The position numbers and the translations under genes were made by a program. A stretch of DNA of 64,000 nt, taken from contig OX485805.1 of assembly GCA_950295325.1 (NCBI GenBank), forward strand, positions 51,298,758 to 51,362,757. Reading direction: 5' to 3'. Within the stretch, counting starts at the first letter, position 1. Each line of letters opens with the position of its first letter. Below the pieces are notes generated by a model. That model was not told the DNA's origin and did not search any database. It saw only the letters and a list, made by a program, of their open reading frames with translations. This document shows positions 4,791 through 21,840 of the stretch, one piece after another. The DNA comes from Polytrichum commune. Lineage: Eukaryota > Streptophyta > Polytrichopsida > Polytrichales > Polytrichaceae.

Positions 4791-5667
4791 TTAAGTGAAA
4801 ATAATTCAAAACTATATACTAACTTTGAATTTTGTGAAGGAAAAAATCATGTACATTTGAAAAACACATTGATCTACAAGGCCAAGCAATTTATGTTGAA
4901 ATTTTTCTCTTAAAGAAAACTCTACATATTTTAGAAGATGGTGCAAGTAGATATATTGAACAATTAATTTTCTAAAATTTGTTTTAACATGATAAAATTA
5001 CATCAAATTGATGAATTTCAATGTGTTGCAAATGTTGTGAAGTTACGCAATGAGCGACAAGGTCAGGAACATGCAACCTATATGATTGTAAGAAGGCAAG
5101 TGAAAATATTTTTCCACCTTGTCAATGTCGAGGACATTGATAGGTGTTCAAAATGGTACAACAAGAAAATACATGAAATTTTCTCCATGCATTCGGTGGC
5201 ATTTGTGAGCCCTAGGAATTTCACCCTCATAAAATTATGAGATATGCTTGTTGGTGTTAGGAATGCATGGATGACAAACCCCAATTTTGCATGAATGTCG
5301 TGCATTGGATGGAATGGTCTTTGCAAGTGTTTGAACCTAATAATTTCAACATATACAATAAATTTCATTTGGTTTCTCATAGCAAGTCAAATTATTGTGA
5401 TGACATGTATCGATAAACTTTGACAAGTTGGTAGGGCATGTGTGCAGGTTAGGTGGATTATAACCATGTTTGATGATCGAGGACATCATCCACATGTATT
5501 GCCATTTCAATATCATAGTGACTACTATGCATTCTATGTTAATAGTGTCATGAAACAAGGCGGCAATTTGTTAAACTGTTGATTTTAGTGCTTACTTAAG
5601 CTCAATAGCAATCATGTTCTTACCATTTAGTTGCTAAAACTATGAATGATAATTATTTTGTGAACTA
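4791..5667. other. Linker within the degenerate DDE transposase locus
   Basis: This stretch is AT-rich. One open frame at 4989-5240 plus (FQCVANVVKLRNERQGQE) may be a decayed part of the transposase, since it lies between its core and its C-terminal part. No domain is visible. Confidence 0.3.
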
Positions 5668-6018
5668 TTGGATTTGAAAATAGGAGAAGATGACATGGAT
5701 TCACTTAGTGATACAGAGACATCAAATTCCAAGTGCTCCAAAGACGATGATTCCCATTATGAAGCTACGTTGGGAACTCAGGTTGGTAGAATGGAAATAG
5801 GTGACAATTTTGCAGTGATTACAGATGAGCTTGAGAACGGAGACCCCTTTTATGTGGTTTTGTGTGACACTCCATTGTACACTTATGAGAGCACATTCGA
5901 AGATGGGTGGGAGAACACATGGTTTCATAGGGACATGATATTGACTAGCACTTATTACGAAAGGGAGAAAGGAGGTGCAAGTGGAAGCATACCCGTACTC
6001 ATTGCTTAGAGATAGACC
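5668..6018 (+). pseudogene. C-terminal part of the DDE transposase, interrupted by the giant transposon
   Basis: The frame runs through an acidic linker (MDSLSDTETSNSKCSKDDD) into GDNFAVITDELENGDPFYVV, DGWENTWFHRDMI and TYYEREKG, a pattern I recall from C-terminal domains of this transposase family. The expected ending continues in the +1 frame as YSLLRDRP up to the target-site duplication at 6009-6018. Beyond the transposon it resumes at 21678 as IVVAYSHLVVHSKFPMM. The exact rejoining after one copy of GAGATAGACC confirms both the insertion and the gene's reading direction. Confidence 0.7.
6009..6018. repeat. Left target-site duplication of the giant transposon
   Basis: GAGATAGACC is repeated exactly at 21668-21677. 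Ten bases is within the 8-11 bp range known for Mutator-like elements. Confidence 0.9.
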
Positions 6019-6090
6019 GGGGAGTGCTATCTTATGAGCGGTGAGCAATGAGCGGTGAGCGATGAGCGGTAACTTATGAGCAGTGAGGAA
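6019..6090 (+). repeat. Left terminal inverted repeat made of TGAGC heptamers
   Basis: After the terminal GGGGAGTGCTATCT the sequence is a run of units of the form RTGAGCR (atgagcg, gtgagca, atgagcg, gtgagcg, atgagcg), then ttatgagcagtgagg. The same composition, reversed, is at 21585-21667 and near 39050-39113. Such clustered short motifs are plausible transposase-binding sites. Confidence 0.9.
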
Positions 6091-6215
6091 GATGAAAATT
6101 TTGGTAATAGGGCCACCAATATCCTATAACCGTGGAATTGTGGCCTTAAAAATGATGATTTTAGGGTTTAGTAATAAGAGGGTTGAGAAGGATAAACAAC
6201 ATGAAGTCCAAAAAT

Positions 6216-9200
6216 TTATTCATCAGTAGTAGCACTAGACATGAAACTATCTTTTGCCTCATCATCTATATATATTCGAGCACCTTTGCATTGCGAATTG
6301 ATTTTGGAACTATAGCAAGATTCTTCATTTGGATCTGAATCTTCGAGATTCAACATTGCAATTGCAACATTCTCGGCATATGATGGGAGACGCGGGCTAC
6401 GGCTTGGACTTCGTAGGAATTGTCTATGTGCCCAAAACGGGAGACATGTCCTCTTTCCAATCGTATTCCTGAAATCAAATCGATGAAACATGTAAATAAT
6501 GTGAAGAAATAAAAATGAACCAATGAATTGAATGAAACGAATGAATTGAATAAAAATTTATTGTATTAAAACTTACTCACATTCAAATTCAAGCATCTCC
6601 TCATCCGAGAGGTCATCATCTTCTTTTGTGAGATCTTGTATATTCTCCTTAGATGACCCCTCTTTCAAAACGTTTTCCAAAAGCGGTTTCAATATGTGCT
6701 CAAACATGTCATTATCACCCTCAAATGCAAGAAGATGTCTGCCACATGCGCGTGTTGCTAGGATAGAAGCTCCAGTGGAACATGTCAAATCAACAACACG
6801 TCCATTCGATGGTGTAAACAATTCAATAAGATCTTGAAAAAAACGCGGCGATTTTTTATATGGCCCCCTCCAAGGTCTTCCCGATTTTTGAAGAAGCATG
6901 TTTTTTTCATCCACAAAATTGAAAAGCAAGTTTTTGCTTTTCAATCCAGTGCCAAAAAAAGTGGAGTTTGGTTGTCTCGTGCATTTTGTGGTAGTAAAAT
7001 CCCTTACCAAGACATGAGCCATAAATGTCAGAGTCTACAAAAACATGTAAATTGTATTAAAACTATATACAATGCAAATAACACCAAAATAATTAAATAG
7101 AAACAATTGTGATGTGTTATATTTACGGTGTAGGTTGGAGACTCCGGATCCTTGAACACCATGTACGAATTGAAGAAAATAAAAGTCCTAAGAACTTTCA
7201 TGTTGCCGTTGTGTAAGGTTGAATTCAAAATCTTCTTGGTTTGCATATCGATAGCAGAAAATACTATGAGGACGCCATCATCAGACAAGATGGACTTGCA
7301 GAAGGACATTGTTGCAACCATCCAGTTATTGTCATATTTATTCCAAAGAGGAATTTCAACAGGTCTATTGGAGAGGTTGAAGTCAAGACCGTCGGAAAAT
7401 TGGAGAAAAACCAAGTCAACGGCAAAGGGAGTCGGACAACCCATGACATGAAATTCGCGATTGTCATTGAACTGAAATACCACAACATATCACAATATAA
7501 GACACAAAATAAAACCCAAATGAAAGTAAGAACATTAGAAAAAATACCAAAACAATAATACTTACGTTTTCAATAAATTCCCGCCATTGGATCCACTCAG
7601 GAAGGCCTACATCCACCCCTTCAGACTTGTTCTTGACAGCAGTAGATCGAGCAAACGAGAGCGTGAGAAAGTTCTTCAGTATGAATAATTTTTTTCTCAA
7701 AATATCCGTTGGCGCACGATGAATAGCGTCATAGGTGTTGGAGTAATGAAATTCCAATACATCGCACCCAGACTTTGAACTTTCGCCTCCAAGTGGATTC
7801 TTATCCAAATCATTGGAAAGAACAAGCAATTCAACATGTTGTGAAATTTCCGATTGACCTTGTATTTTGGTTTCAGGAACATGTTTCCTCTTACGACGTT
7901 TTGTCTCTTTTGGTTCGGGCTCTCTAAGTTTAAACTGTAGAATTTGTGCTTGCAAAATTGCAGTATCACGAGGATCCACATTTTTAGCATCATTTATCTG
8001 ACGGATTGTCTTCTCACTTGACGGACATGCATCCTTAGGACAATCAAGATACCAACCACAATCCTCATAGTGTGGGAGCGACCAATCCAAACAAATCTCA
8101 GTAGTGAACATGCATGAATCTCCTGCACCAGTGTCACGCCAATTTGGGAAAAAACGAGGTTCCCCTATAACGTATTTATGTGGAATCAAAACATATCGAA
8201 AATACCTACACACAAAAATATTGTAAGTCAAATATTCCATGACAATTTGACAAATGGAATCAAAAAAATCAAAAAAATAATAAGATTAGATTGTACATGT
8301 ATAATACACATTTCATAGCAAGATCAATATTAGGTTGCTCATCCCAACCGTTGTGTTTTTTTACTTTTCCGCTTTGAAATTCACGATAGAATATTGAATT
8401 GAAAGCCGCAAACTTCCAAGTTTGGATATACTCGGAGAGAGTAGGCACATCTGCAGGCAACTGAAGAGGAGATGAAAGAATATTTTGAAGCTCTTCGATA
8501 GCTTTTTTTTCCAACTGTATCCAATATGTAGACTTTGATAACCAATCATCAAGTGCAGAATCAGAGAGGGGCGATTTCGGGAAATGCAATGCATCTTTGT
8601 CAAATCTATTGCCATTCCAAAGCTTGAGCCATCCAACTTTGACTTCTGCATCCACATTACTGACAGCAACACGATGAAGTTTCTCTTCTAGCATTTTAGG
8701 CACCGAAAATGAACCCCAATGGTGCTTAATTTCTTCAAAGAAAGCAGAGGTAAAGTTGATATCGGCAATCGCTAGTTGTTTCGTAAAACTAGAAGATAAC
8801 ATTGCACGTTTTTTGTTGACAGCTGCGGACATTGCTTTTGAAACTCCGTCTGATGTCCGTTTAAGAGGATGAGTTTCCTTGTACTGATTGAGAGCAATAT
8901 CGCTAGCCTCAGCAAGTTCTTGCTGAAAAATCAAACAAAAGTCAATATTTATACGTACATATAGATGTAATATAAAATGAAGATGAATAAACATAAGGCA
9001 CATATTAGCAATGGTAGAAGAACTTACACTGTACATGTAATCCAAAAAAATTGGTCGTGTCAAAGAATATTAAGTTTCGACGGACTTCTCCTCACATCGT
9101 TTATAATTCTTTGGATCCAGTTGCTTTCTGAAGGAAGTCAAAGGCATAGTGCCAATACTTTGCATCCAATATAAAGTATGCACCAAATTGGTGGATACGT

Positions 9201-10043
9201 GAGAATTTTCGGTTGACCTGAAGAAAACATTAAATTGATTAGATTCATGATGATATAATTTGGGAAACAAAATATAAACTAGAAATAAGTGTAAAAAAAT
9301 AGGTAAGAACATTACTTGTTGATATCATGCATAGCAATCAACAAACTTGGAATGTCGTTAGGCTCGGGCGCCAAAATGATAGAATCCACAAAGACATGAC
9401 GTTCATAATCTTCGGTATATACGCGGTCAATATAATTTTTCCAAGCAAAAAATCTGTGATTTCCATCCCATATAGAAAACATCTTGTTCTTGTATGACGT
9501 CAATGACAAATCTATATCCAATTGAAATTTTAAACAGGGCATTGGCTTGAGCCCAATTTGAGCTCCAAAATTCGCGAACCTCATCATCTACGAATTGAAA
9601 GTTTCCCTTAGAATCGGTGGCCGATATATAAAACACACGGTCACCATCACGATAACCATTGAAAAAATCAGCCTCCAATTTAATAATGTCCCCCTTCAAA
9701 GTAGGACGCACAATCGGCATAGGAACCATGCGATATAAGGGTACACGCAAGCGAGCATTAGCTCCAGCACGAATTGAAGAAATTGTGGAAGTGAATTTGA
9801 CCTTTCGTTTGTTCGTAAGCTCCCACATTTTTTTTTGATAAGTTTTATTGTCACCATCATTATCTTCATCCGAGTCAAAATCATCGAGGGATTTATTTAT
9901 TTATTTATTTTCTTATTATGAAGATTTGACAACATGTCCTGATGATGATGAACTTGTTGAGATGGACGATCATGAGTTGAATGCATTGTGGAATCATCAC
10001 CAGTAGAATTAGGAGTCGTTCTCTCCAAATCCATTAATTGGTC
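6216..10043 (-). pseudogene. ParB-like/DNA methyltransferase-like fusion gene, exons 2-8
   Basis: Probable exons: 10043-9316, 9217-9028, 8922-8310, 8205-7566, 7471-7127, 7034-6577 and 6468-6216, with GT-AG introns of about 90-105 nt; only the 8310/8205 junction does not keep frame. Exon 2 holds WDGNHRFFAW (9441-9470), matching the ParB/sulfiredoxin-like GxHR motif. Exon 6 has DLVFLQFSDG (7390-7421) where N4/N6 methyltransferases have D-x-x-x-x-DPPY. Exon 7 has RGPYKKS, then VVDLTCSTGASILATRACGR (6768-6800), resembling motif I, then FEGD. Motif IV before motif I is the permuted order of PF01555 enzymes, which bacteria and phages often fuse to ParB domains. Catalytic DPPY is absent. Breaks: an AAAT-repeat frameshift near 9900, a 1-nt frameshift near 9530 and a TAA at 9070-9072. 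Basic and acidic low-complexity linkers suggest a nuclear protein. Target base unknown. Confidence 0.75.
9891..9910. repeat. ATTT microsatellite inside the coding exon
   Basis: Five ATTT units lie in exon 2 of the methyltransferase-like gene. On the minus strand the upstream frame from ATG 10034 (MDLERTTPNS) runs into a TAA inside this repeat, while the downstream frame (SLDDFDSDEDN) continues into the conserved part. Removing two units would join them without a stop. Confidence 0.7.
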
Positions 10044-10049
10044 CTAAAA

Positions 10050-10310
10050 CAAATAAAATAAGTTCCATAAATATTTCAAAACCAGTAGCAACACATTAGC
10101 AATAACATTACAAAAACAACAACAATAACAACAGAATACCACGAACACATGGAAGAATGACAAAAATTATTCTAGATACTTCCATTTGCACCTTTAAATA
10201 CTGTACGATTAGGGTGGCCGATCACCCCAAAACTACAAGAGCAGACCCTATGCGTTAACGCACAGGGTCTGTGTGTCCAACTACAGGTCTACCAAAGTTG
10301 GGCGCAAGGT
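10050..10310. other. Probable intron 1 segment with one isolated palindrome
   Basis: This AT-rich sequence lies upstream of a good splice acceptor (tttgttttag, minus) for exon 2. It contains one palindrome near 10243-10273 with core TGCGTTAACGCA, a member of the same family as the array at 11096-11860. Confidence 0.5.
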
Positions 10311-10622
10311 TTGGATCAAACGACCCAAACTGTCCACACGCTTTTGATCGAGCGACCCAAACCGCCTACAGCCAGTTTGGGTCGAACGACCCAAACCACG
10401 CTCACAGTTTGGGTCGAGCGACCCAATCCACGCTCACAGTTTGGGTCAAGCGACCCAAACCACGCTCACAGTTTGGGTCGAGCAACCCAAACCAAGCTCA
10501 CAGTTTGGGTCGAGCGACCCAAACTAGGCGCACAGTTTGGGTCGAGCGACCCAAACCATGCTTACAGTTTGGGTCGTTCGACCCAAACCATGCTCACAGT
10601 TTGGATCGAACGACCCAAACTG
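10311..10622. repeat. Palindromic array 1: ten 20-bp palindromes, period about 32 bp
   Basis: Each unit has the arm TTTGGGTCG, two central bases (AG, AA or TT), and the arm CGACCCAAA, followed by a spacer such as ccacgctcacag. Ten units are visible; the outermost have one or two arm mismatches. The centre varies while the arms stay complementary. Because 32 is not a multiple of three, several forward frames stay open across it, giving meaningless repetitive ORFs. Four further units occur at 15033-15152 inside the transposase gene. CpG occurs in both arms of every intact unit. Confidence 0.92.
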
Positions 10623-11095
10623 TCCGCAATTTACGCCTGATTATGCGCAATTTTATAGTCTGGAATTGGTAGATTTGCCAAAACTTATAAAATCTGGAAA
10701 AAATGCTAATGGGGTCCAAAAAAAAACAAAAATATGCTATATTATCTAAATCTCCGTAGCTACAAATTCTTCTTATATATTTTTTTGGTTTGAAATCATT
10801 TTCTTTTCTCATTCTTCTATCTATTTCCTTGTTTTTGGCCACCTCGTAGATTTTGGGTTTCGGGGCAAAAAAAAATTATGCTATTTTGTATCATTTTCTA
10901 GCTCCTATAACGTATTGCATGAATACTTGAGTAGACATATTTCTCATTTCTTGCATTCTAACCCCGTTTTGAATAGTTTTTTTGCTCCTACGCTCTGAAC
11001 ATCGATTTAAATTCATACAATAGATATTTGTTTTACTTTTAGGCTCTCCTAGTCGTTTTACCTCCCAACTTTTGGCCTTCCTAAGTTGCTCTTGC
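10623..11095. other. Spacer between the two palindromic arrays
   Basis: Unique AT-rich sequence with no gene or repeat that I can recognise. It probably belongs to intron 1 of the methyltransferase-like gene. Confidence 0.4.
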
Positions 11096-11860
11096 AAACC
11101 CTGTGCGTTAACGCACAGGGTTTTACCTCCCAACTTTGGCCTTCCTAAGTTGCGCTTACAAACCCTGTGCATTAACGCACAGGGTTTCTCCTCCCAACTT
11201 TTTTGCCTCCTAAGTTGCTCTTACAAACCCTGTGCGTTAACGCACAGGGTTTCTTCTCCCAACGTTTTGCCTCCTAAGTTGCGCTTACAAACCCTGTGCG
11301 TTAACGCACAAGGTTTCTCCTCCCAACTTTTGGCCTTTCTAAGTTGTTATTACAAACCCTGTGCGTTAACGCACAGGGTTTTAGCTCCCAGCTTTTGGCC
11401 TTCCTAAGTTGCTATTATAAATCCTGTGCGTTAACGCACAGGGTTTTAGCTCCCAACTTTTGGCCTCCCTAAGTTGTTCTTATAAACCTTGTGCGTTAAC
11501 GTACAGGGTTTTACCTCCCAACTTCTCGCCTCCTAAGTTGCTCTTATAAACCCTGTGCGTTAACGTACAGGGTTTTACCTCCCAACTTCTCGCCTCCTAA
11601 GTTGCTCTTGTAAACCATGTGCGTTAACGTACAGGGTTTACCTCCCAACTTCTCGCCTCCTAAATTGCTCTTATAAACCATGTGCGTTAGCGTACAGGGT
11701 TTTACCTCCCAACTTCTCGCCTCCTAAGTTGCTCTTATAAACCCTGTACGTTCTCCTCCTAACTTCTAGCCTTCCTAAATTTCTGTTATATACCATGTGC
11801 ATTAACGTATAGGATTTCTCCTCTCCAATTTATAACCTCTATAAATTGCTACTACATGAC
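11096..11860. repeat. Palindromic array 2: 12-13 units of a 28-bp palindrome, period about 63 bp
   Basis: The complete unit is AAACCCTGTGCGTT followed directly by its reverse complement, centred on GTTAAC. Units start near 11096, 11160, 11225, 11289, 11354, 11419, 11484, 11546, 11611, 11676, 11738, 11790 and 11850. The spacer is conserved (acctcccaacttttggcctt, then cctaagttgct). The first, third and fifth units keep full dyad symmetry; from about 11484 the right arm changes to ACGTACAGGG and symmetry fails, and the last units are vestigial. The conserved spacers make it a satellite array and exclude CRISPR. Confidence 0.93.
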
Positions 11861-11941
11861 ATGTGAAAGAACGTACAAGGTTCTCCGTCCTAACTTACAA
11901 CTTATGCACTATCAAATTATGTGAACGTTGAACTAACTTAC

Positions 11942-12222
11942 CTTTTGTTTGTCGTCTTCTTTGAACCCGTCTTCAATTCGGACTCTGATATACGATCGTC
12001 TACATCTTCTTTGCTCTTTGCACCTTCATCATCCTCCATCGTATGAAAATCCAGTGTCTTCACAGTTTCTTCTACCGTATTCAACAAGTTTCTTTTCCCT
12101 TCATTTTTTGCATCCTTCTTTCCCACACTGAGTCTGAATCTCTTTTTCTCGGAAGTGAAATACAAAGCTTTCCTACGTCTTCTCTTCGGCCTCACGGGTG
12201 TTCTCTCTACATCGTCCACCAT
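11942..12222 (-). CDS. Basic N-terminal exon, probably exon 1 of the ParB-methyltransferase-like gene
   Basis: The frame starts at ATG 12222 (MVDDVERTPVRPKRRRRKAL) and encodes a lysine/arginine-rich region with likely nuclear-localisation signals, then an acidic segment. It ends at a strong donor, AAAAG|GTAAGT, at 11942/11941. The next good acceptor on this strand is at 10043, so intron 1 would be about 1.9 kb and would contain both palindromic arrays. Joining the two exons as written puts a stop soon after the junction, so either one frameshift has accumulated or another small exon is missed. The alternative is a separate small gene of about 94 codons. It starts only 522 bp from the divergent transposase start. 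Confidence 0.5.
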
Positions 12223-12744
12223 CGTTGGTGTCTATGATATGTTTTCTATGAGGTACTATCATTTATTCTTCCAATGTATCTATCTCACAAAATCCGGCGT
12301 ATATTACGATCACATATTGTAATTGGCGTTCAATGAACGAGATATTTCGACGCGTTTGTCATTATGTGTTTATTTTTGTTATATCCGCCAAAATTTTCTG
12401 ACACCTACTTTGTTCTATTCATAATGATCAATAATTTATTTTTCCAACCAATTTTAATTCTTTCTACATCTGCGTCAGTCCACACATATATATTTTAAAT
12501 TTCTACCAATGCTTTTAGTATTTGACACCATTTTGTGTATATCTTGCTTGTAAATATTCTCTGATTATTATTGTGTTATGTCCACTTCTGTATTATTAGA
12601 TGCTATGTATCACACGCTTTCATCTTCATCCATTATTGTATCACATGTTTTCATTTCCATTCATTTCCTCACACAACTCTATACAAAAGCAACATTCACC
12701 CCATATTTTTGTGATGTGTTGTTCATATGTTCTTTTGATTTTCT
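12223..12744. promoter_or_regulatory. Divergent promoter spacer between the two transposon genes
   Basis: This AT-rich 522-bp interval separates the minus-strand start at 12222 from the plus-strand start at 12745. TATA-like tracts are present (for example cacatatatattttaaa near 12483-12498). The arrangement implies shared or linked transcription of the two genes, although no specific operator can be identified. Confidence 0.45.
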
Positions 12745-14869
12745 ATGGCTACCATTAAAGCTCATGGATCTTTTGTTCCCTTCATCTTGCCACTCCAAGA
12801 TGATGGTCATGTGAGTGTTTCAGAGGATTACTTAGTTTGAGATTCAACCTCCAGATAGGAACCACGTATTTAGAGCATGAGATGTACTTTGTAGATGGAG
12901 AGGTGTATGAAACGATTTTGGTTCCAAAAAATAGAACTGATGTTGGTTTTATGTGGATCTTAGGACCTGGTTCATTTAGGGTGATAGGACTTTCTGAATC
13001 TCAGATGCAAGCTTCAACTGTCATTTTGACAAACGAATCTGGTACATCCACAGTTCTAATTCGCTCTATCACACATGTTAAGGTGGAACCCCTTGATGAT
13101 AGTGTGTTTGTGCTATCAGATTCAGAAGATGACATTTGTGCATCTGTTGATCTTTCAAACACATCGCCATTTCCATTTAGAAGTGTTCATTCTACTCCTT
13201 CCCAAAATCCTATACATGTAGCCAAATCCCCTTGCGGTCTTATGTACAAGAAGGTGGTTCCCCAAATCTCACATTCTCAACGTCTTCCACTACACCCTTC
13301 ACCTTCATCTACAGGGTTGACTATGGTTGATGCCTTGAAGCTGACAAAGTCAAGAAAAAGATCAAAGTCCGATCTTGCATCCATTGATTTTGACAGTATA
13401 GATGTTCGTGAAGTCAAGTACTTACCATCTTCTTTTAATGGTGATGTTTTGTTTCTCTTGCCTTTTGTAGCACTCAAAGCTCCAAATACGTATGGTTGCT
13501 CAATGGACGGCATTGACAAGATGTGCGACGGTCACCCTTGGTGCACCACCAAAACCACGAATATCCAAAATGACTTTGGACTGTCCTTCCGGCGCTCTAC
13601 TTGTGCTGGTCATCTCCAATGTCATAATGACTACTATGATTACATGAATCACAATGGAGGCCTCCGGAACAACACTGAATGGGCCGGTTCAACTCCTATC
13701 CCATTTGCTGTGGGTGTTGTTCCCCCTACTAAGTCCACTGTCGAGTGTAAGGTATGTCGTTCCACACATGTGTGCATTGCTTTGTATAATGCTCGAATCA
13801 TATACATCCACTCCACATCCGTTGGAATGTCTAGGGCTTGCATTCATCTTGGTGTATATGATCACCCTGTGGCCAATGGCACATGCCGAAATCATTGGAC
13901 ATGACATACCAATGCGTTGCAAATGAAGTATTAAAAACACCCACAGCAAAAAATTCAGCCATAGTTATGGCGGCGAGCAAACAATTCTTGGCCGATTACC
14001 TTCTCAAATATCCCGCAAATGTCGAAGGCCATCACTTGGTTGGTTCATCCCTAGAGGTCGTCATGGACAAATTCAGCACTCTTGCGTCTCCAAATTGTCG
14101 TAACTTTGTATTTAGATCAAAGCGTTTTTTGCGTAGTGGAATGAGAACTATGGATAGTATTATGGCGCTCAAAGACCACTCTGCTTTTAAATTCGTCCAT
14201 GGTAGTCGGTTCCCAAGGCAGTCAAAGGACAAAGTGTTTGTTTTTAAGATGTCTGTAGACCTTCCAGGTAGTGGTGTGGAGCTTGTGAAGAGGATGCAAG
14301 TCGGTGGGGATATGGAGAATTCATGAATTATATTTGACCATGTCAAACGTTTGAAGGACTGGACGACCATGGCTTGCCATGTGTACGACAGTCGATACTA
14401 TAAAGTGTTGACTATTGTGTGTTGTGACATGCAATCTGAAGATGGTGCAGCACAAATTCTATTTTGGGAAAATTTGAATGTTGTCATGGCAGAAAATGGT
14501 GTACCAAACGTAAACTTCAAAGGGTTTATGGCTGATAGTGCTCAAGCTAATTGGAATGCCGTGAGGGCGATTTACGGGGATGGTGATCCAAATCTACCCA
14601 TGATTGCACGTGAGCGTACATGTCTTTTCCATTGGTCCGCAAGCTTGGATAAGGTGACCCAAAAGTATATCAAACCATCCTTGCAATTTCAACACAAACA
14701 AATATGCAAGGATTACAAAGACGCGAAAACAATGGACGACGCTGAGACCAAGTACCATGTGATTTGTTCTTGGTGGTTGTTATCTGGAGCTGCCTCCGAA
14801 GAAGGCATCCTTGGCCTTTCAGAGTGGTTGGGATTTTGGTACTTTCGTTACAGACAATGGGGTGGCCAT

Positions 14870-15395
14870 ATGCTACTTGTAAGTATATATCAAACTTCAT
14901 TACTCAATGTAATATATCTTATGTTTTTCTTATCTTTGTCTTTCTGTGTTGTTCATAGGATATGACAATAGAAGAGCGTGCGGGAATGCCAACATGCAAC
15001 CTTGCAGAGACTGTACACAACAAACAACAAACAGTTTGGGTCGTTCGACCCAAACCTTGTATGCAGTTTGGGTCGTTCGAGTCAAACGTGGCAGCTATTT
15101 TGGGTCGTTCGAGTCAAACGTGGCAGTTATTTTGGGTCGAACGACCCAAACCTAGATATATAATCTATCTTATGTTTGTCTTATCCTTATATTTGTGTGT
15201 TGTTCATATGCTAATTGTAAGTACATATCAAACTTCATTATTCACTGTCATTCACTATCTTGCCACTGATATATAATATATCTTATGTTTTTCTTATTCT
15301 TGTATTTGTGTGTTGTTCATAGGATATGACAATAGAAGAGCGTGCAGAAATGCCAACATGCAACCTTGCAGAGACTGTGCACAACAAATGGCTCC
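14870..15395 (+). repeat. Segmental duplication of intron and exon start flanking palindromes
   Basis: The intron end and the following exon start (gatatgacaatagaagagcg, through cacaacaaa) occur at 14950-15026 and again at 15314-15390. The intron itself (tatatcttatgtttttctta, tgtgttgttcata) is present about three times between 14880 and 15322. Four family-1 palindromes sit exactly between the two exon copies. The second copy is the one that continues in frame into the rest of the transposase. Confidence 0.85.
15033..15152. repeat. Four units of palindrome family 1 within the transposase
   Basis: Units lie near 15033, 15066, 15098 and 15131. The outer two are complete, with TTTGGGTCG and CGACCCAAA arms. 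The inner two have CGAGTCAAA on the right, an identical change in both, so they were duplicated after it arose. Spacing is 32-33 bp, as in the array at 10311-10622. Confidence 0.9.
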
Positions 15396-15555
15396 AACAG
15401 TCCGGCAACAAGATGATTTGTTTATATGAAGCTACAGTGGACGACATGATCCGTGCCTTCATGCAAATTGCAAATTACCGGACATGGTTGAAAGGGGGGT
15501 CTGATGGTAAAGGTCCTGATTCGGCATCCTTGAAACTCAAAGCGGCTGCCAGGTG

Positions 15556-15560
15556 TGGAG
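15556..15560. repeat. Left TSD (TGGAG) of the nested LTR-type element
   Basis: It is repeated exactly at 19627-19631. Removing the element and one copy restores the transposase frame across the site, AARCGDPKMLADAMKF. Confidence 0.9.
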
Positions 15561-16161
15561 TGTGGGAGTCCAAATTCGACGGAAATACGGAAATACGGAT
15601 TCCATTTCCGTGTTTTTCCCTGCTTATCTGAAGGTAATAGGGTCCCTTAGGTTAAAATTAATTGTACTAGGAAATAGAGTATTCTAACTCCACCTTGCGT
15701 GATAAAACGGCTTAAAATAAGTACTATGACCGGTCCGTCAATTTGGATGGGCGGACCGTGTAATCATGATCCGAACCATTGGTCCGGACCAAGTAACGGA
15801 CGCGCCAAGATTACCCAACGGACCGGAAGTGGCGGTTATAACGGGTTTATGACGGTTGGGGGAAGACCGTCGGAAAACTGTTATAACCGTTTTCCGTTAA
15901 TCCAAACGGTAACAGAGGAGGGATATTTAGGAATCCCTTCCTTCTCCTTCCCACTTTTTTCTGATTCATAAACGACGAAATTGCTGAGAGAACGAGTGGT
16001 GAGGTTGTTGTCATTTCGAGCCGCCAGCAGTTGGATTGCTGGGACTCAGCACTTTTCAGTCACCGGCAGTTGGCTTGCCGGGACTCTGTAGCAGTTAGTC
16101 GGAAGAGAGGGAATCCGGAAGGGAGAGAGAGAGTTTGCAAGTCGGAAAGCTAGAGAGGAAA

Positions 16162-18234
16162 ATGCCGGAAGCACGGGAAGAGGATCAACGGGAACCCATC
16201 CCGATTCCGCTGAAAGCCCTCACCCCTGCAATTCCGAGGGAGGATAGAGAGCTGCAAGAGCTCGCGGAGGATCTCCGGGTCATGGGTTGTGCGGGATTGC
16301 TCTCTAAACCCTGGAACCTCAGAGCGAAAGATACCCTTCGGGAGTTTAAGTTCGAGAGAGGCAATCAATGGTTAGGCACAAAGAGGAGGGATCCGGAAAA
16401 TTGGACTCCGGATACCTGGAACAGGGTCTACGGGTTTCCCAGGGGGATTGCCAAAGGGTGGGCTGGCCGCCGCGACGGCCTGTTCGCCGGAAAGTTCAGA
16501 GGGGACGCGGACCCAAAGGACGGATTCCACCCTGGGAACTGCCGGAATATTAGGGAGTGGAGAGTGTTAGAGTTTCTCCTGCCCATTCTCAACCCGGACA
16601 AGCCGAAGCGGATTAGCCTCACCATGGCTAATACGCTGTTTGGTGCAATGTCCGGAGTCCGACCGGTGAACTGGGGCCTGATCATCCAGGAGATAGTCGG
16701 ACGGGCCCTCCCCCACATCGGCCGGAAACCCTCCTTCCTCTCCCCCTTCATTTTGCACCTCTACCAGCACTTCGGCTGCATCTTGGCGGAGGAAGAGGAC
16801 CTGCTAACGATAGCGGCGGACGAGGTCGCCTACAAGCTTCTTCCGGAAGCCGGAGACGTCGAGACGGAGACCTCCAGCGACCCCATTCTTCCGGAAGCAC
16901 CCCCCTCGTCACCCGGAAGCCCGCCGCCAACCGTCTCGAGGCCACTCTCTCCCCCTCCTCCTCACCATCATCCGGAAGTCGGACCCAGCCGGGAGACCAC
17001 ATGGCGAAATGTGGACCTATCAGCTTGGGACTTTCCGGAAAATCCCTTCAAGCGGATGCAGGAGGGGATGGAGGACCTGCAAACCCAGTACTTCCGGCTG
17101 GAGCACATCGTCCGAGGAGCGAACCAGGCTCTGGACGACTGAGGGCCCAGAAATATTCTTCGAGAGTTGGCAAAAAGGGCGGACCGGAAGGAGCTGGAGC
17201 AGGCCAAGACGGAGAACGCTCACCTCACCGCGCAGGTAGCGGCCATGACTCAGGAGCTGAGTCAGAAGAGCGAAGAGATCCGGAAGTACCACGCGGAGCA
17301 GGCGGTGCTCTTCAGCCGGATCCGGGAGTTGGTGGGGCACCCGGCGGAGATCGTCAACAAGGCGCACCTCTACGACCGGATGATGGAGTCCGGAGAGCCC
17401 GCTTCCGCCAGGCAGATCCTTCCCATCCTCGTGAAGTACTCACGGACGATGAAGGACCTCCTAGCGGAAATCCAGAGGGTGGTCCCACCAAGCGGAACAC
17501 CCCGGCGGGTACTCTATCCGGGTCCACCTGGGTCACCAACCGGAACCCTCTATGAGGTAGTTGGTGAAGTGGCCCTGGTGCAGAATCCGCCGACATCTGC
17601 AGGACCCAGCCAGCAGGGAGGCGGCTCGCAGCCGGCTAGTTCCGGGAGGGTTCCGGAACAGGCCCGTTATCCCCAGGTGAGGAGGAAGAGTACCGGGTCG
17701 GTCCGATCCGGGAGAGGCCAGTCCCCGGTTCCGCGAAACTCGGATCGATCCCGGACTCCGGATAGGGCTAGGACGCCGATCCGGCACCAGACTTCTGATC
17801 GGGAGGCAACTCCGAGTAGGGGCAAGGCCCCTATGACCCACGCCTCACCATCGTCTCCGCAGGACTGCCAAATGGTGAGTCCCTTTCCTCCGCCACCCTC
17901 AAGGGCGGCCTCCAACAGGGATCCGCGGACAGCTTCGATCTCGGGCGGACGGAATCCGGAGCAGGGCACCGGAAGCGATCCTTCTCCGATCCGGAGCCTC
18001 CGGATGGGGGTAGTTTCCGGAACCCCAGGAACAGTCTCCGGAACACCAGGGACCGGGACACCGCGGACCGAGAGAGCAGCGGATTCGGAGGACGAGGTTG
18101 CCCCGTCTCCGAACATGAGAAGAATGCTCACACGGCTGCAAAAGGCATCGCCGGGAGGGGGCTCATCCGCCGTCAGCGGGTTAGGCAGTCACTCAAAGGA
18201 GGGATCGGCTCCGAAGAAGCACCGCTCTTCTTAG
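16162..18234 (+). pseudogene. Gag-like ORF of the nested element, one internal TGA
   Basis: One frame starts at ATG 16162 (MPEAREEDQREPIPIP). It runs 326 codons to a TGA at 17140-17142 and then continues in the same frame to TAG near 18234, about 690 codons in all. The first part has a globular region with W/F-rich blocks (WTPDTWNRVYGFPRG, RKPSFLSPFILHLY) that recalls plant retroelement gag-like or mobile-domain proteins. After the stop comes a heptad-rich coiled coil (LEQAKTENAHLTAQVAAM), then a long Ser/Pro/Arg-rich disordered tail. No zinc knuckle or protease was seen. The TGA may be a CGA-to-TGA mutation or a readthrough site; a single clean stop in an otherwise open frame suggests a young insertion. 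Confidence 0.6.
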
Positions 18235-18525
18235 TAGAGGAGAATAGCTAGTTTAGTTAGGCAGAATAGAGGTAGGCAAGTAGGACTTAGGAGTTTTTGA
18301 AGATGAGTAATAAAATTTTCCCTTGGGAGTGTCAGCGGAAAACCCGGATCTTGATCCGGGAAATCCGGGAAATCCGGGAGACCGGGTGTAGTTAGGGTTT
18401 TTCTTAGCGGCGGCCGCTTGGGCCGCCGCCCTCAGTTTAGGGATTTTGAGCCTCTACTTAAGGCTGAATAAGGAGCTTGAGAAGGGTTCCTTCTCCATTG
18501 TTGTATTGTGATTACTCCTACTCCA

Positions 18526-18531
18526 AATAAA
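18526..18531 (+). terminator. Likely polyadenylation signal of the nested element
   Basis: AATAAA follows the ORF by about 290 bp and precedes a T-rich stretch. Position and context fit a plant 3' end, but the cleavage site cannot be located. Confidence 0.4.
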
Positions 18532-18659
18532 TGCCTTTGCTTCTCGCTCCTTGACTTCTCTTTATTGATGTTTGTGTGAATGATCCTGAGATTGTTAGCG
18601 GAAGAGAGAGAGAGAGAGCATGAGGGATAGGAGCTCCGGATAGGACATGAGAGAAGAGA

Positions 18660-19170
18660 CCCGGATCAGATCCGGTTATTGCCTTGTAGATCCTCTCTGA
18701 GTGTAGTGGGAGGGAAACCTCACTAATCCGGTGGGTTGGGTAACGTCTAGGTGGGATAGCCGCTGGGAAGATTGGGTGAGATCCGGAAGGGATCCGGACT
18801 TACGCCAATCTGATCTTCTGAAGAGGTCCCACCGCCCTTAGACGGACCTATCCGGATGGTGGTACGGATCGCCCAGTTAGCTCAGATTGAGTAGAATCCA
18901 AGGTAGAGGTAGCCGGACAGATCCGTTGGAAGGAGAAGGGAAGGTCCGGATTAGTAAGGATTCCGGGTTGGAGGCCACCTCCGGAGTGAAGTAGGAAGAG
19001 ATCCTCATTGTTCCGGATGTCCGGGTAACATCTCGGTGAGACAGTCGTGGGAGATTAGGCAAAGGTCCGGAGGGGATCCGGACTTTACTGACCTTCCAAA
19101 GAGGTAGCCTCACTGGTGGACGGGACAATCCGGAAAGTGGTACGGGTCACCCACTCATCCCGTCGAGTCA
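18660..19170. repeat. Degenerate tandem duplication, unit about 290 bp
   Basis: Two blocks share order and wording: 'gatccggaagggatccggactta' at about 18780 matches 'ggtccggaggggatccggactt' at about 19063, and 'ggatggtggtacggatcgcc' at about 18853 matches 'ggaaagtggtacgggtcacc' at about 19131. The surrounding 'gggtaac.tc' and 'gtgggagatt' segments match too. The copies are well diverged. Confidence 0.7.
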
Positions 19171-20691
19171 GATCTCCGGTCGGAATCCGGACTCCTCTGG
19201 TCACTATGGTCCCAAGAAACAATTCGGATCTCTCTGTGTGACCTGCCAAGAGGGATCTGATCAATCCGGATTGGTTGTGAGGGAGTGTCCGGATTCCAAT
19301 CTTATCAAGGACGTCTTCACCGGAAGAAACCACCTATTCTAGAGGGTAGAAGTAAAGGGGTGGGTAAGTATTATAATGAGAACCTAGAGATACCATCCGG
19401 AAAGGCACACTCCGGAAAAAGGCTAAGAGTGTCCCCAAAGACCAAATATCCGGAAATTAGGGTTTCCGGAAATTTGGCTAAGGAAGAGGAAATAAGCAGG
19501 TACGGAGGGTTCTAGACCTCCTACATTTCACAGAATCCCTGGACGATACTAGGGTCATCTGGACAAACCCGGATTAGGCACTTAAACATGCCAATCCGGA
19601 TAAGTTGGTGTTCGCGTGTTCCCACATGGAGATCCAAAAATGTTGGCCGATGCCATGAAGTTTTATCCAGGGGCAGAAGACGTCAACACTAGAGATTGTG
19701 CATTGGAAGGGTCATAGCTCTTTGGTTCCACCAAACGCAAACTCAACCTACCACCGGGTGCTGATTGTGACTCTCATCGACCCGACAAAGTGAACTATTC
19801 CATTCCTCGTCCCAACACCCGAGCAACTCGTCAACGCATAGAAGAATCGTTGAGTTCTGCAATTCGTGGTGTGGCTCATACTACATCCGTATTAGAGACA
19901 AATTGTCTTGCTTCCAAGTGGCACATTGCAAGATTACCACCCAACTCAGCCAAACGATGTTGGGCACTGCAGGCCATCACAGGGACTATGTGCAATGCCA
20001 AAGTCGGGACTGGGAAACATGACACACCTGCTCCAACATACAAAGGGCTCAGAAAGGAATTTCGCTCTCCCAACAATGTGGAGTATGAATTTTGGTTTTG
20101 CCCTGACGACATCAAACGTTGTGTGAGTGGCAGTAAGAAGAAATATGTGTTAGACTGGCCTATAGTACCCAACACGTGGCCGGTAAAGATAGGTACCAAT
20201 CTATCGCAAGAGGAGGTTTTGGCACTTGAAGATGCTGGATTTCAACTACAGCAGAGGGAGGCATTGTCCCCTCGTCGTAGGCTTTCAACAATCGCAACTC
20301 TCCCCATCCCTCGCTCGCATTTTTCTATGCCACCAAACCCGGACGCCCACCCTACATTCAGGTTTGCAAAGACGGTGCGTCGTAATCCAATAGCACCGCT
20401 AGCGGATCACAAAAACAAATGGGAGAGCGCCGGACTCATGGAGGGTTACTATGTGGTTGGGGTCACTGCCATTCCATATCCGGGCTTTGGAGTGATAATC
20501 AACATTGTCTCCAAGCATGATATCACATATCATGTCACAATTGGCGACATCCCGCATTGCACATGTCCGGATTTCACAAAAATGTCCTCTCATGCATTGG
20601 GAAAGAAAGGAAAATGGGTGTATTGTAAACATCTTTATTATGTGTTTAGATTTTTGCGCAAAGTGGATTATGAGAGTGACAAGTTCATTCA

Positions 20692-21460
20692 TGCACCTAC
20701 ATATATCTATAACGAGGTCATGCGACTACTTGAACTTGCTGGTATTGTAGAGTGTGAGTAGTATTGCAAATGGTCTATTAAGTACCATATATTTGAATGT
20801 CAAAATATGACATGTTTTGGTTTGGATTTTTATAATAAAAATGAGCAATGGGCTGGAAGTATTTCAAATGATTCAGTAACTTCATTTCTATTTAGACTAC
20901 GACCCAACCGTGAGCGGTTTGATTGATTGACATGGATAAATAATAACAAGTTTCTAAAAATAAAAAATAATTGAGAAGATTCTACGCATATCCGCGTAGT
21001 AACGTCTTCTTGGTATCCGCCTATAGATTATTCCTGCTTTATCACTAGCTCAATTTGGGATAGCACCAGTCAATGTAACCAACCGGATTCGAACCCGGGT
21101 TGATACAGACGTAATACCAGTCTCTTACACAACTCACATCCACAGGCGGATGTCTCAAAACCTAGTAGTTACCTACATATTGACTATTTCTAATATCTAA
21201 TTTCCTTTCATTTGTAGATTTTGGGCCTTAATTCAACCCGTGAGCAGTTTGAGTGGCTCACAATTATGGCACCTACATGTACGTATAATGAGGTTATGCA
21301 CCTACTTGAATTTGCTGGTGTTGTGGAATGTGAGTAGTTGTGCAAGTATTGGTTGTAACTACATGTATAAGGATGTCAATAAATGACATGTATTGGTTTA
21401 AATTATTATAATAAAAATCAGCAATGAATTGAAAGTGTTTTAAATGATCCATGGAAATAG
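20692..21460 (+). repeat. Duplicated 3' end of the transposase gene
   Basis: The last codons and 3' flank (caccta.at.ta..tataa.gaggt.atgc, through aataaaaat.agcaatg) occur at 20692-20870 and again at 21269-21425. The second copy still reads like the APTYIYNEVMRLLELAG C-terminus and has the same TGTGAGTAG ending. Between the copies lies other material, including a SINE-like block. Confidence 0.85.
20940..21180 (-). mobile_element. Possible tRNA-derived SINE
   Basis: On the minus strand a block contains GGGTTCGAATCCGG, a good RNA polymerase III B-box, about 45 nt after an A-box-like stretch (gtgagttgtgtaagagactgg). It ends in an AT-rich tail near 20950-20990. A full cloverleaf cannot be drawn, so a functional tRNA is unlikely. 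It sits between the two copies of the transposase 3' end. Confidence 0.4.
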
Positions 21461-21584
21461 GGCCCTTTCACTTGTGCTTCATTTAAGATATTGGCAATTT
21501 ACAATTGAAAATATACAATTAATTTGTCAAAATTTTGGTTGTGTATCCTAAACCCGTGTGTCTTTACTAAATTTGGAATCATTG

Positions 21585-21667
21585 CTCATATGTTACTGCT
21601 CATTGCTCATGTGATACTGCTCACCGCTCACCGTTCACTGCTCATCGCTCATAAGATAGCTTCCCTC
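21585..21667 (-). repeat. Right terminal inverted repeat made of TGAGC heptamers
   Basis: Read on the minus strand it begins GAGGGAAGCTATCTTATGAG, then runs through units gtgagc/atgagc as at the left end. It is followed on the plus strand by the second TSD copy at 21668-21677. Confidence 0.9.
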
Positions 21668-21840
21668 GAGATAGACCTATAGTAGTAGCTTATTCTCATC
21701 TTGTTGTGCATAGCAAATTTCCAATGATGCCTAGTGCAAATTTAAAGGGCAATCATTGTTTCTCCATGTCAAGAGAAGTGAGGGCGTACATATTGCATGC
21801 AATAGAGGAAAGGAGGGATGCATTTTTTTTGCACATGTAA
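21668..21840 (+). pseudogene. Terminal part of the DDE transposase, beyond the giant transposon
   Basis: Starting inside the TSD copy, the frame continues the gene broken at 6018: RDRPIVVAYSHLVVHSKFP, then MMPSANLKGNHCFSMSREV and a stop at 21838-21840. The YSHLV..xKFPM ending is what I recall for this transposase family. Confidence 0.6.

Follow-up and report, generated by a model that had tools for sequence, protein, structure and literature searches.

Transposons of several eukaryotic groups carry genes of the ParB/methyltransferase type, and the reason suggested in print, in passages of PMC12477816, is that the proteins bind and modify the elements' own DNA. A 64,000-nt stretch of Polytrichum commune (contig OX485805.1, positions 51,298,758 to 51,362,757 of the forward strand; hereafter the window) raises this question at positions 6019-21667, where a transposon, a nested insert included, holds a transposase gene and, divergent from it, a gene whose predicted product has ParB-like and methyltransferase (MTase)-like features. 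Does the divergent gene belong to the element, and what might its product do there? We find that it does belong to the element, and we tentatively favour a two-gene transposon with a SWIM-type transposase and a self-directed DNA-binding, perhaps anti-silencing, MTase-derived factor.

A first-pass annotation of the locus had proposed looking for further copies of the gene between the same termini, and such copies were found. The genome searched comprised 407.8 Mb, with seven large contigs of 42-78 Mb, and neighbours were scored for the best matches, namely 40 of 767 left-end, 40 of 832 right-end and 150 of 1378 exon candidates; the neighbour count omits 10 rows in which an exon counted before recurred as a second piece, as well as 23 short rows from an internal duplicate. 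The left 302 bp of the element are matched at 99-100% in the best 40 left ends and the right 469 bp at 96-100% in the best 40 right ends. The MTase-like exon stands in the correct orientation beside all 40 scored left ends (562-563 bp inside in 38 of these) and with 38 of the 40 scored right ends (at 9.6-14 kb in 33 of these), and the ParB/MTase-like gene is therefore a fixed part of the element. A chance neighbour or host gene is ruled out by the same fixed position. The flanks of 20 retrieved copies differ and the element starts at the identical base in all 20; the gene is matched unbroken in 16 of them, the exceptions being L020, without about 0.1 kb, L027, with an insertion, and L015 and L018, with larger internal deletions.

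Alignment of copies predicts seven exons for this gene, and its six introns all read GT...AG in the window copy, in agreement with the divergent multi-exon gene first described. An intact gene in the window is ruled out: exon 1 has two frameshifts that offset each other, and a stop codon interrupts exon 2 at its end. The window copy is broken in both genes, the transposase frame being the other. Among 24 spliced sequences (the window, 17 copies and 6 divergent relatives, with L015, L018 and L027 left out), a single one, L028, is without internal stops; it encodes 1076 amino acids (aa), and its second donor reads AT.

Profile comparisons support an MTase-like terminal domain of bacterial or phage amino-MTase ancestry, as the first-pass annotation had supposed from similarity. 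The L028 protein, of the window's own family 1, matches PHROG_67 (E 1.2e-7) and, with both halves in order, PF01555 (17.4 bits, E 0.0046, below the cut-off), and a second family exceeds the PF01555 cut-off of 26.7 bits with 35.6 and 32.9. A four-family alignment matches DpnA (E 6e-6) and the phage-type ParB-MTase L051 (hhalign 91.5%, E 8.5e-7). Exon 6 on its own returned only two weak PDB matches by phmmer (E 0.16 and 0.24), and a tblastn search of phages with the family 2 protein drew eight records, all at E 3-10; beneath the match, seven of these carry an annotation as DNA methylase or methyltransferase.

Active amino-MTases carry a catalytic (D/N/S)PP(Y/F/W) at motif IV. This sequence is found in none of the four families: the 24 family 1 sequences read QFPD (17), QFSD (3, the window included), QYPD (1) and QCPD (1), with two frameshifted, and elsewhere we read DIPY and DIPD (family 2, one copy each), DIPE (family 3, two copies) and DLPE (family 4, one copy). 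Because motif IV is without DPPY in every copy read, amino-methylation by the element protein appears doubtful. Of the 24 family 1 sequences, 22 retain the glycine-rich S-adenosylmethionine (SAM) loop as DLTCSTG, and the other families have DLFVGTG/DLSVGTG, DVNAGVG and DVAAATG there. The protein may be a pseudo-enzyme or have an altered substrate. Of the earlier idea that the transposon acquired a bacterial or phage DNA modification protein, the MTase ancestry and the ownership by the element hold, whereas modification activity is not supported, motif IV being degenerate in four families.

Exon 1 contains a ParB-like motif (DGNHRFFAW in the window, IWDGNHRFLAW in copies), and the string KNKMF-IWDGNH--AW, common to families 1 and 2, resembles the DG-H-R box of ParB. 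The motif originally pointed out is thus present, but the domain is without any profile support: of the two profiles proposed for checking, PF01555 was found (family 2 over and family 1 below the cut-off), while PF02195 (ParB_N) has no match in either the family 1 or the family 2 protein. Searched against the genome, PF02195 matched only on contigs C12 and C23 and on none of the seven large contigs. The best PHROG match of the ParB-like stretch is phrog_9020, of unknown function (E 0.0081), and a fold model of exon 1 gave a predicted local distance difference test score (pLDDT) of 33, too low for the model to be used. The ParB part rests on one motif, and the ancestor was probably of the ParB-MTase kind.

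Copies of family 1 fall into lineages A and B, and fixed differences between six A and four B copies amount to 62 synonymous and 19 nonsynonymous (60 and 15 in exons 1-4). Ratios of nonsynonymous to synonymous divergence (dN/dS) between lineages are 0.15-0.21 in 12 of 16 pairs and 0.34-0.37 in the other four, all with L040, the 5′ part of which is foreign; within lineages they are 0.42-0.84 (16 pairs without L040) and 0.60-0.63 (four pairs with it). Since fixed differences are so largely synonymous and dN/dS is lower between than within lineages, these codon comparisons show purifying selection on exons 1-4; being concentrated there, the signal concerns the N-terminal and middle parts and leaves selection on the MTase domain of family 1 unproven. 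The lineages differ by 0.4-5% over the first 1.5 kb (the end and last exons), by 6-16% at 2.0-4.0 kb from the end (the N-terminal half of the gene, window 8000-10100) and mostly by 0.4-4% in the transposase exon; the corresponding differences within lineage A are 0-7%. Because this half is divergent while ends and transposases are nearly identical, we read the pattern as an exchange of the N-terminal gene half between elements.

Further families suggest that the gene has a longer history. A PF01555 search of the genome returned two further loci on large contigs, which make up the second family with a 577-codon open frame, and weaker relatives of its protein are scattered across all seven large contigs. 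In the joined family 2 locus the gene stops at offset 8457 and is followed by a 184-bp stretch alike to the left end of the main element, with the outer end at 9445 (one end of this element seen); two family 3 copies match each other as far as a GCTCACCGCTCA-rich terminus, beyond which they differ immediately (again one end seen). In both families the gene is oriented toward a terminus related to that of the main element. The gene was probably in the superfamily since before the families diverged.

Two arrays of palindromic repeats occupy the stretch between the two gene starts. With up to 4 mismatches allowed and the block in the transposase intron counted, each of 21 sequences has 3-20 sites of the type TTTGGGTCG-nn-CGACCCAAA, mostly 32 bp apart; with up to 6 mismatches, 20 of the 21 have 7-30 sites of the type CCCTGTGCGTTAACGCACAGGG, mostly 64-65 bp apart, and L015, with its deletion, has one. 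Three copies gave 47 and 39 array sites against 0.28 and 0.50 in shuffled-arm controls. The window array includes three perfect 28-bp palindromes, and TGTGCG-nnnn-CGCACA with up to 2 mismatches occurs at 11 places in the window, all 11 inside the element, where 0.8 were expected; the family 2 locus has seven such core sites upstream of its gene, spaced 102-105 bp save one gap of 128, where 0.1 were expected, the shuffles for 28-bp palindromes and core sites preserving base composition only. The half-sites TGTGCG/CGCACA are therefore common to two families that are 28-39% alike, whereas centres (TTAA in 175 of 193 family 1 sites; CTAG, CTGG or CTGA in family 2) and unit lengths differ, and outside the half-site the units of the two families share nothing by eye. 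These arrays may be binding sites of the element's protein. The ratio of observed to expected CpG in seven copies is 0.63-1.18 over the gene and arrays and 0.39-0.73 over the transposase blocks (0.47-0.52 in the window outside the element), a hint compatible with an undermethylated left part.

The element itself was well delimited from the start (Table 1). It begins with GGGGAGTGCTATCTTATGAGC and finishes with GCTCATAAGATAGCTTCCCTC, its inverted arms (6026-6087 and 21599-21660) are 85% complementary, and the perfect 10-bp target-site duplication (TSD) GAGATAGACC lies on both sides; 10-bp TSDs occur in five of the six elements for which both ends were available (the window, L017, L020, L025 and L027, not L018). 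The description of the element as giant is right in that it is large, but its size is partly that of a G+C-rich nested insert of 4,066 bp in the transposase gene; without it the element measures about 11.6 kb, and two insert-free copies measure 11.5 and 11.9 kb. The insert has open reading frames (ORFs) of 347 and 363 aa, its self-comparison gave no terminal direct repeats, and it is perhaps a solo long terminal repeat or another element.

Table 1. Features of the transposon and its surroundings in the window (positions of the 64,000-nt stretch).
Feature	Position	Strand	Remark
Left TSD	6009..6018		GAGATAGACC
Left terminal inverted repeat	6019..6087		GAGCGGTGAGC-type subrepeats
ParB/MTase-like gene, exon 7	6216..6468	-	with stop
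ParB/MTase-like gene, exon 6	6577..7034	-	SAM-binding half (VVDLTCSTGAS...); PHROG DNA methyltransferase E 5e-5
ParB/MTase-like gene, exon 5	7127..7471	-	motif IV region, VDLVFLQFSDG (most copies QFPDG) at expected DPPY
ParB/MTase-like gene, exon 4	7566..8205	-	
ParB/MTase-like gene, exon 3	8297..8922	-	
ParB/MTase-like gene, exon 2	9028..9217	-	TAA in window copy, TGG in most copies shown
ParB/MTase-like gene, exon 1	9316..10034	-	carries start codon and ParB-like motif DGNHRFFAW; window copy has two frameshifts that offset each other
Solitary TGTGCG-TTAA-CGCACA palindrome	10242..10269		one base off; nearest gene start
Array of TTTGGGTCG-nn-CGACCCAAA inverted repeats	10291..10640		mostly 32-bp spacing
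Array of CCCTGTGCGTTAACGCACAGGG palindromes	11082..11830		mostly 63-65 bp spacing
Transposase exon 1	12745..14878	+	broken in window copy; open for 694 codons in L013
Second block of 32-bp palindromic repeats	15032..15151		transposase intron region
Transposase exon 2, first part	15323..15560	+	
Nested insert, not the element's own	15561..19626		TG...CA termini; 5-bp TGGAG duplication; copy L017 lacks it
Transposase exon 2, rest	19632..20761	+	weak SWIM match and stop
Right terminal inverted repeat	21599..21667		
Right TSD	21668..21677		GAGATAGACC

To which lineage the element belongs is less clear than its borders. The SWIM match by which the transposase was first typed is present, but weak and below the cut-off (PF04434, E 0.046 and 0.081); it is accompanied in exon 2 by two weak DUF matches, exon 1 has no Pfam match, and a single-sequence AlphaFold model of the transposase core gave a pLDDT of 32. 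TSDs of Mutator-like elements (MULEs) are about 8-11 bp long, and the 10 bp seen here in five of six elements fall within that range. The proposed MULE-like lineage found no Pfam counterpart, PF10551 (MULE transposase) being without a match in the transposase exons, and MULE membership is not confirmed. Transposase dN/dS is 0.42-0.65 between lineages, at dS 0.03-0.05 (18 pairs, 6 of 10 A copies), and 0.51-0.85 within them; because these ranges are close, the transposase is without a clear selection signal.

Several further observations concern the surroundings. The left ORF at 5653-6009 and the flank from 21668 form by eye one protein-like stretch save a 1-base frame difference, and the element seems to have inserted inside a coding-like stretch of another repeat. 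An internal duplication near the right end (20693-20875 and 21269-21451) comprises the transposase 3′ end and a downstream stretch and recurs at 23 of the right-end places listed. A scan of the window against Rfam gave no match at the gathering threshold. On the strand of the family 2 gene, and upstream of that gene, are protein-kinase-like ORFs (L044 3100-4261, C1:9657599-9658760), with PF00069 at E 0.21 only; they might be a fusion partner or additional cargo. Contigs C10, C12 and C23, outside the seven large ones, have ordinary PF01555 or ParB matches, C12 (61 kb) carries the ORF of L051, and all three are probably contaminant or from associated bacteria.

How, then, would the divergent gene serve the element? 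Its protein, derived from a bacterial or phage amino-MTase, probably of the ParB-MTase kind, could use its N-terminal or middle part to recognise the palindromes arrayed between the element's two genes; the MTase-like domain would serve SAM or DNA binding rather than ordinary amino-methylation, as a pseudo-enzyme; and coating or marking the divergent promoter region might keep the element expressed, in analogy to VANC in VANDAL. A wider claim, which strikes us as doubtful, is that an ancient eukaryotic transposon superfamily runs self-recognition by a pseudo-methyltransferase and its own parS-like arrays, whose centre, spacing and remaining unit sequence vary from family to family around a retained half-site TGTGCG/CGCACA, and that the factor protects its element from silencing. 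If true, this wider claim would give transposons another route to anti-silencing, one derived from a modification enzyme of the phage type.

A number of points weigh against such a binding factor. Array binding, loss of catalysis and anti-silencing are all argued from sequence, the ParB domain fails all profile tests (Pfam, PHROG, PDB profile and hhalign), and one family 2 copy reads DIPY, close to the functional motif. The MTase exons 5-7 show only 2 synonymous and 4 nonsynonymous fixed differences, with between-lineage ratios of 0.40, 0.53 and 0.18, and pairs with four more divergent relatives, several with foreign or missing 5′ parts, give 0.28-0.68, and L038-L039 0.88. Array sites arose by tandem duplication, which inflates their counts; what stands independently is that the sites are palindromic and that two families share the half-site, and the sharing could be mere common descent. 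Arrays of family 2 were seen in a single copy. Lineages A and B agree in palindrome consensus despite 6-16% N-terminal divergence and hence show no co-variation, and CpG content might stem from coding or ancestry rather than from methylation.

Other functions would account for parts of the same evidence. As an active self-methylase, the protein would bind its own element and place N6-methyladenine or N4-methylcytosine, as proposed for algal ParB-MTase genes and by the Ectocarpus authors for their protein (passages of PMC12477816); the MTase homology with its colinear PF01555 order, the SAM loop kept as listed above and the DIPY copy of family 2 speak for this, but the change of DPPY to QFPD or close variants in family 1 and the DIPE/DLPE of families 3 and 4, where the aromatic residue is missing, speak against it, and we hold it to be unlikely. 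Improbable to a like degree is a transposition accessory factor that binds arrays or ends and aids excision, integration or target choice, possibly with ParB-type nicking: the gene is carried together with the transposase in copies, and DNA nicking has been reported for the ParB-methylase of Bacillus cereus (passages of PMC5512222), but the main arrays occupy the intergenic stretch instead of the ends, and the presence of a ParB domain is unproven.

Palindromes that are long and regularly arrayed, with commonest spacings (32, 64-65 and 102-105 bp) near whole helical turns, would also suit a partition- or chromatin-like loading in which parS-like sites nucleate protein spreading for element maintenance or clustering; for an element that is chromosomal, in a genome whose seven large contigs have no PF02195 match, we give this little credit. 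That nearly all sequences are broken, the window's too (one of 24 spliced ones being free of internal stops), would be expected of a functionless passenger captured as in Pack-MULEs, a reading contradicted by the between-lineage purifying selection and by retention of the gene in divergent families and, to our mind, highly improbable. That selection on exons 5-7 remains unproven for family 1 favours none of these rivals over the MTase-derived binding factor that we prefer. Young copies of the element abound in this genome, the gene occurs in at least four divergent families, and with its selection signal and candidate sites for binding the system lends itself to a direct test.

Modification-type genes have precedents in eukaryotic transposons, KDZ elements carrying those of the TET/JBP type; these are likewise cargo genes, of a different enzyme class and beside a different transposase. 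Phage and bacterial ParB-MTases such as L051 share the apparent domain order of the transposon proteins and align with them over the MTase half, but L051 has DPPY and a PF02195 match, both of which are absent from the transposon proteins examined; these in turn contain a long middle region. In Arabidopsis, VANC binds rapidly diverging non-coding tandem repeats of VANDALs and induces loss of silent marks (PMC10398659), so that both systems combine an element-encoded second protein with non-coding tandem-repeat arrays; unlike VANC, by description, the protein here is MTase-derived and the sites are long palindromes, with binding and anti-silencing as candidate functions. A literature search that combined ParB and transposons with arrays of palindromic or parS-like type yielded a review of bacterial partition and nothing else.

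The closest counterpart is in Ectocarpus, where passages of a 2025 paper (PMC12477816) describe a gene for a ParB-like and MTase protein opposite the transposase strand in Sola1-1_Ec32, so that the first-pass remark that no account of the combination was known is superseded. The same passages state that similar proteins are reported from green and red algal transposons, the green cases being credited to Iyer 2011. Both there and here a large DNA transposon encodes a protein of amino-MTase type, with a ParB-like part there and a ParB-like motif here, of 1104 and 1076 aa, respectively. Compared by description only, the present element differs from Sola1 in its SWIM-type transposase, 10-bp TSD, degenerate motif IV and palindromic arrays, arrays and a changed motif IV being unmentioned in the Ectocarpus passages. 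ParB and MTase genes in algal transposons were thus already known, and what is added here is the lineage, the motif decay, the selection and the arrays. The gene is real, conserved and transposon-borne, and belongs to a kind noted only recently; it differs in the lineage of its transposon, in a degenerate catalytic motif and in arrays that are candidates for binding.

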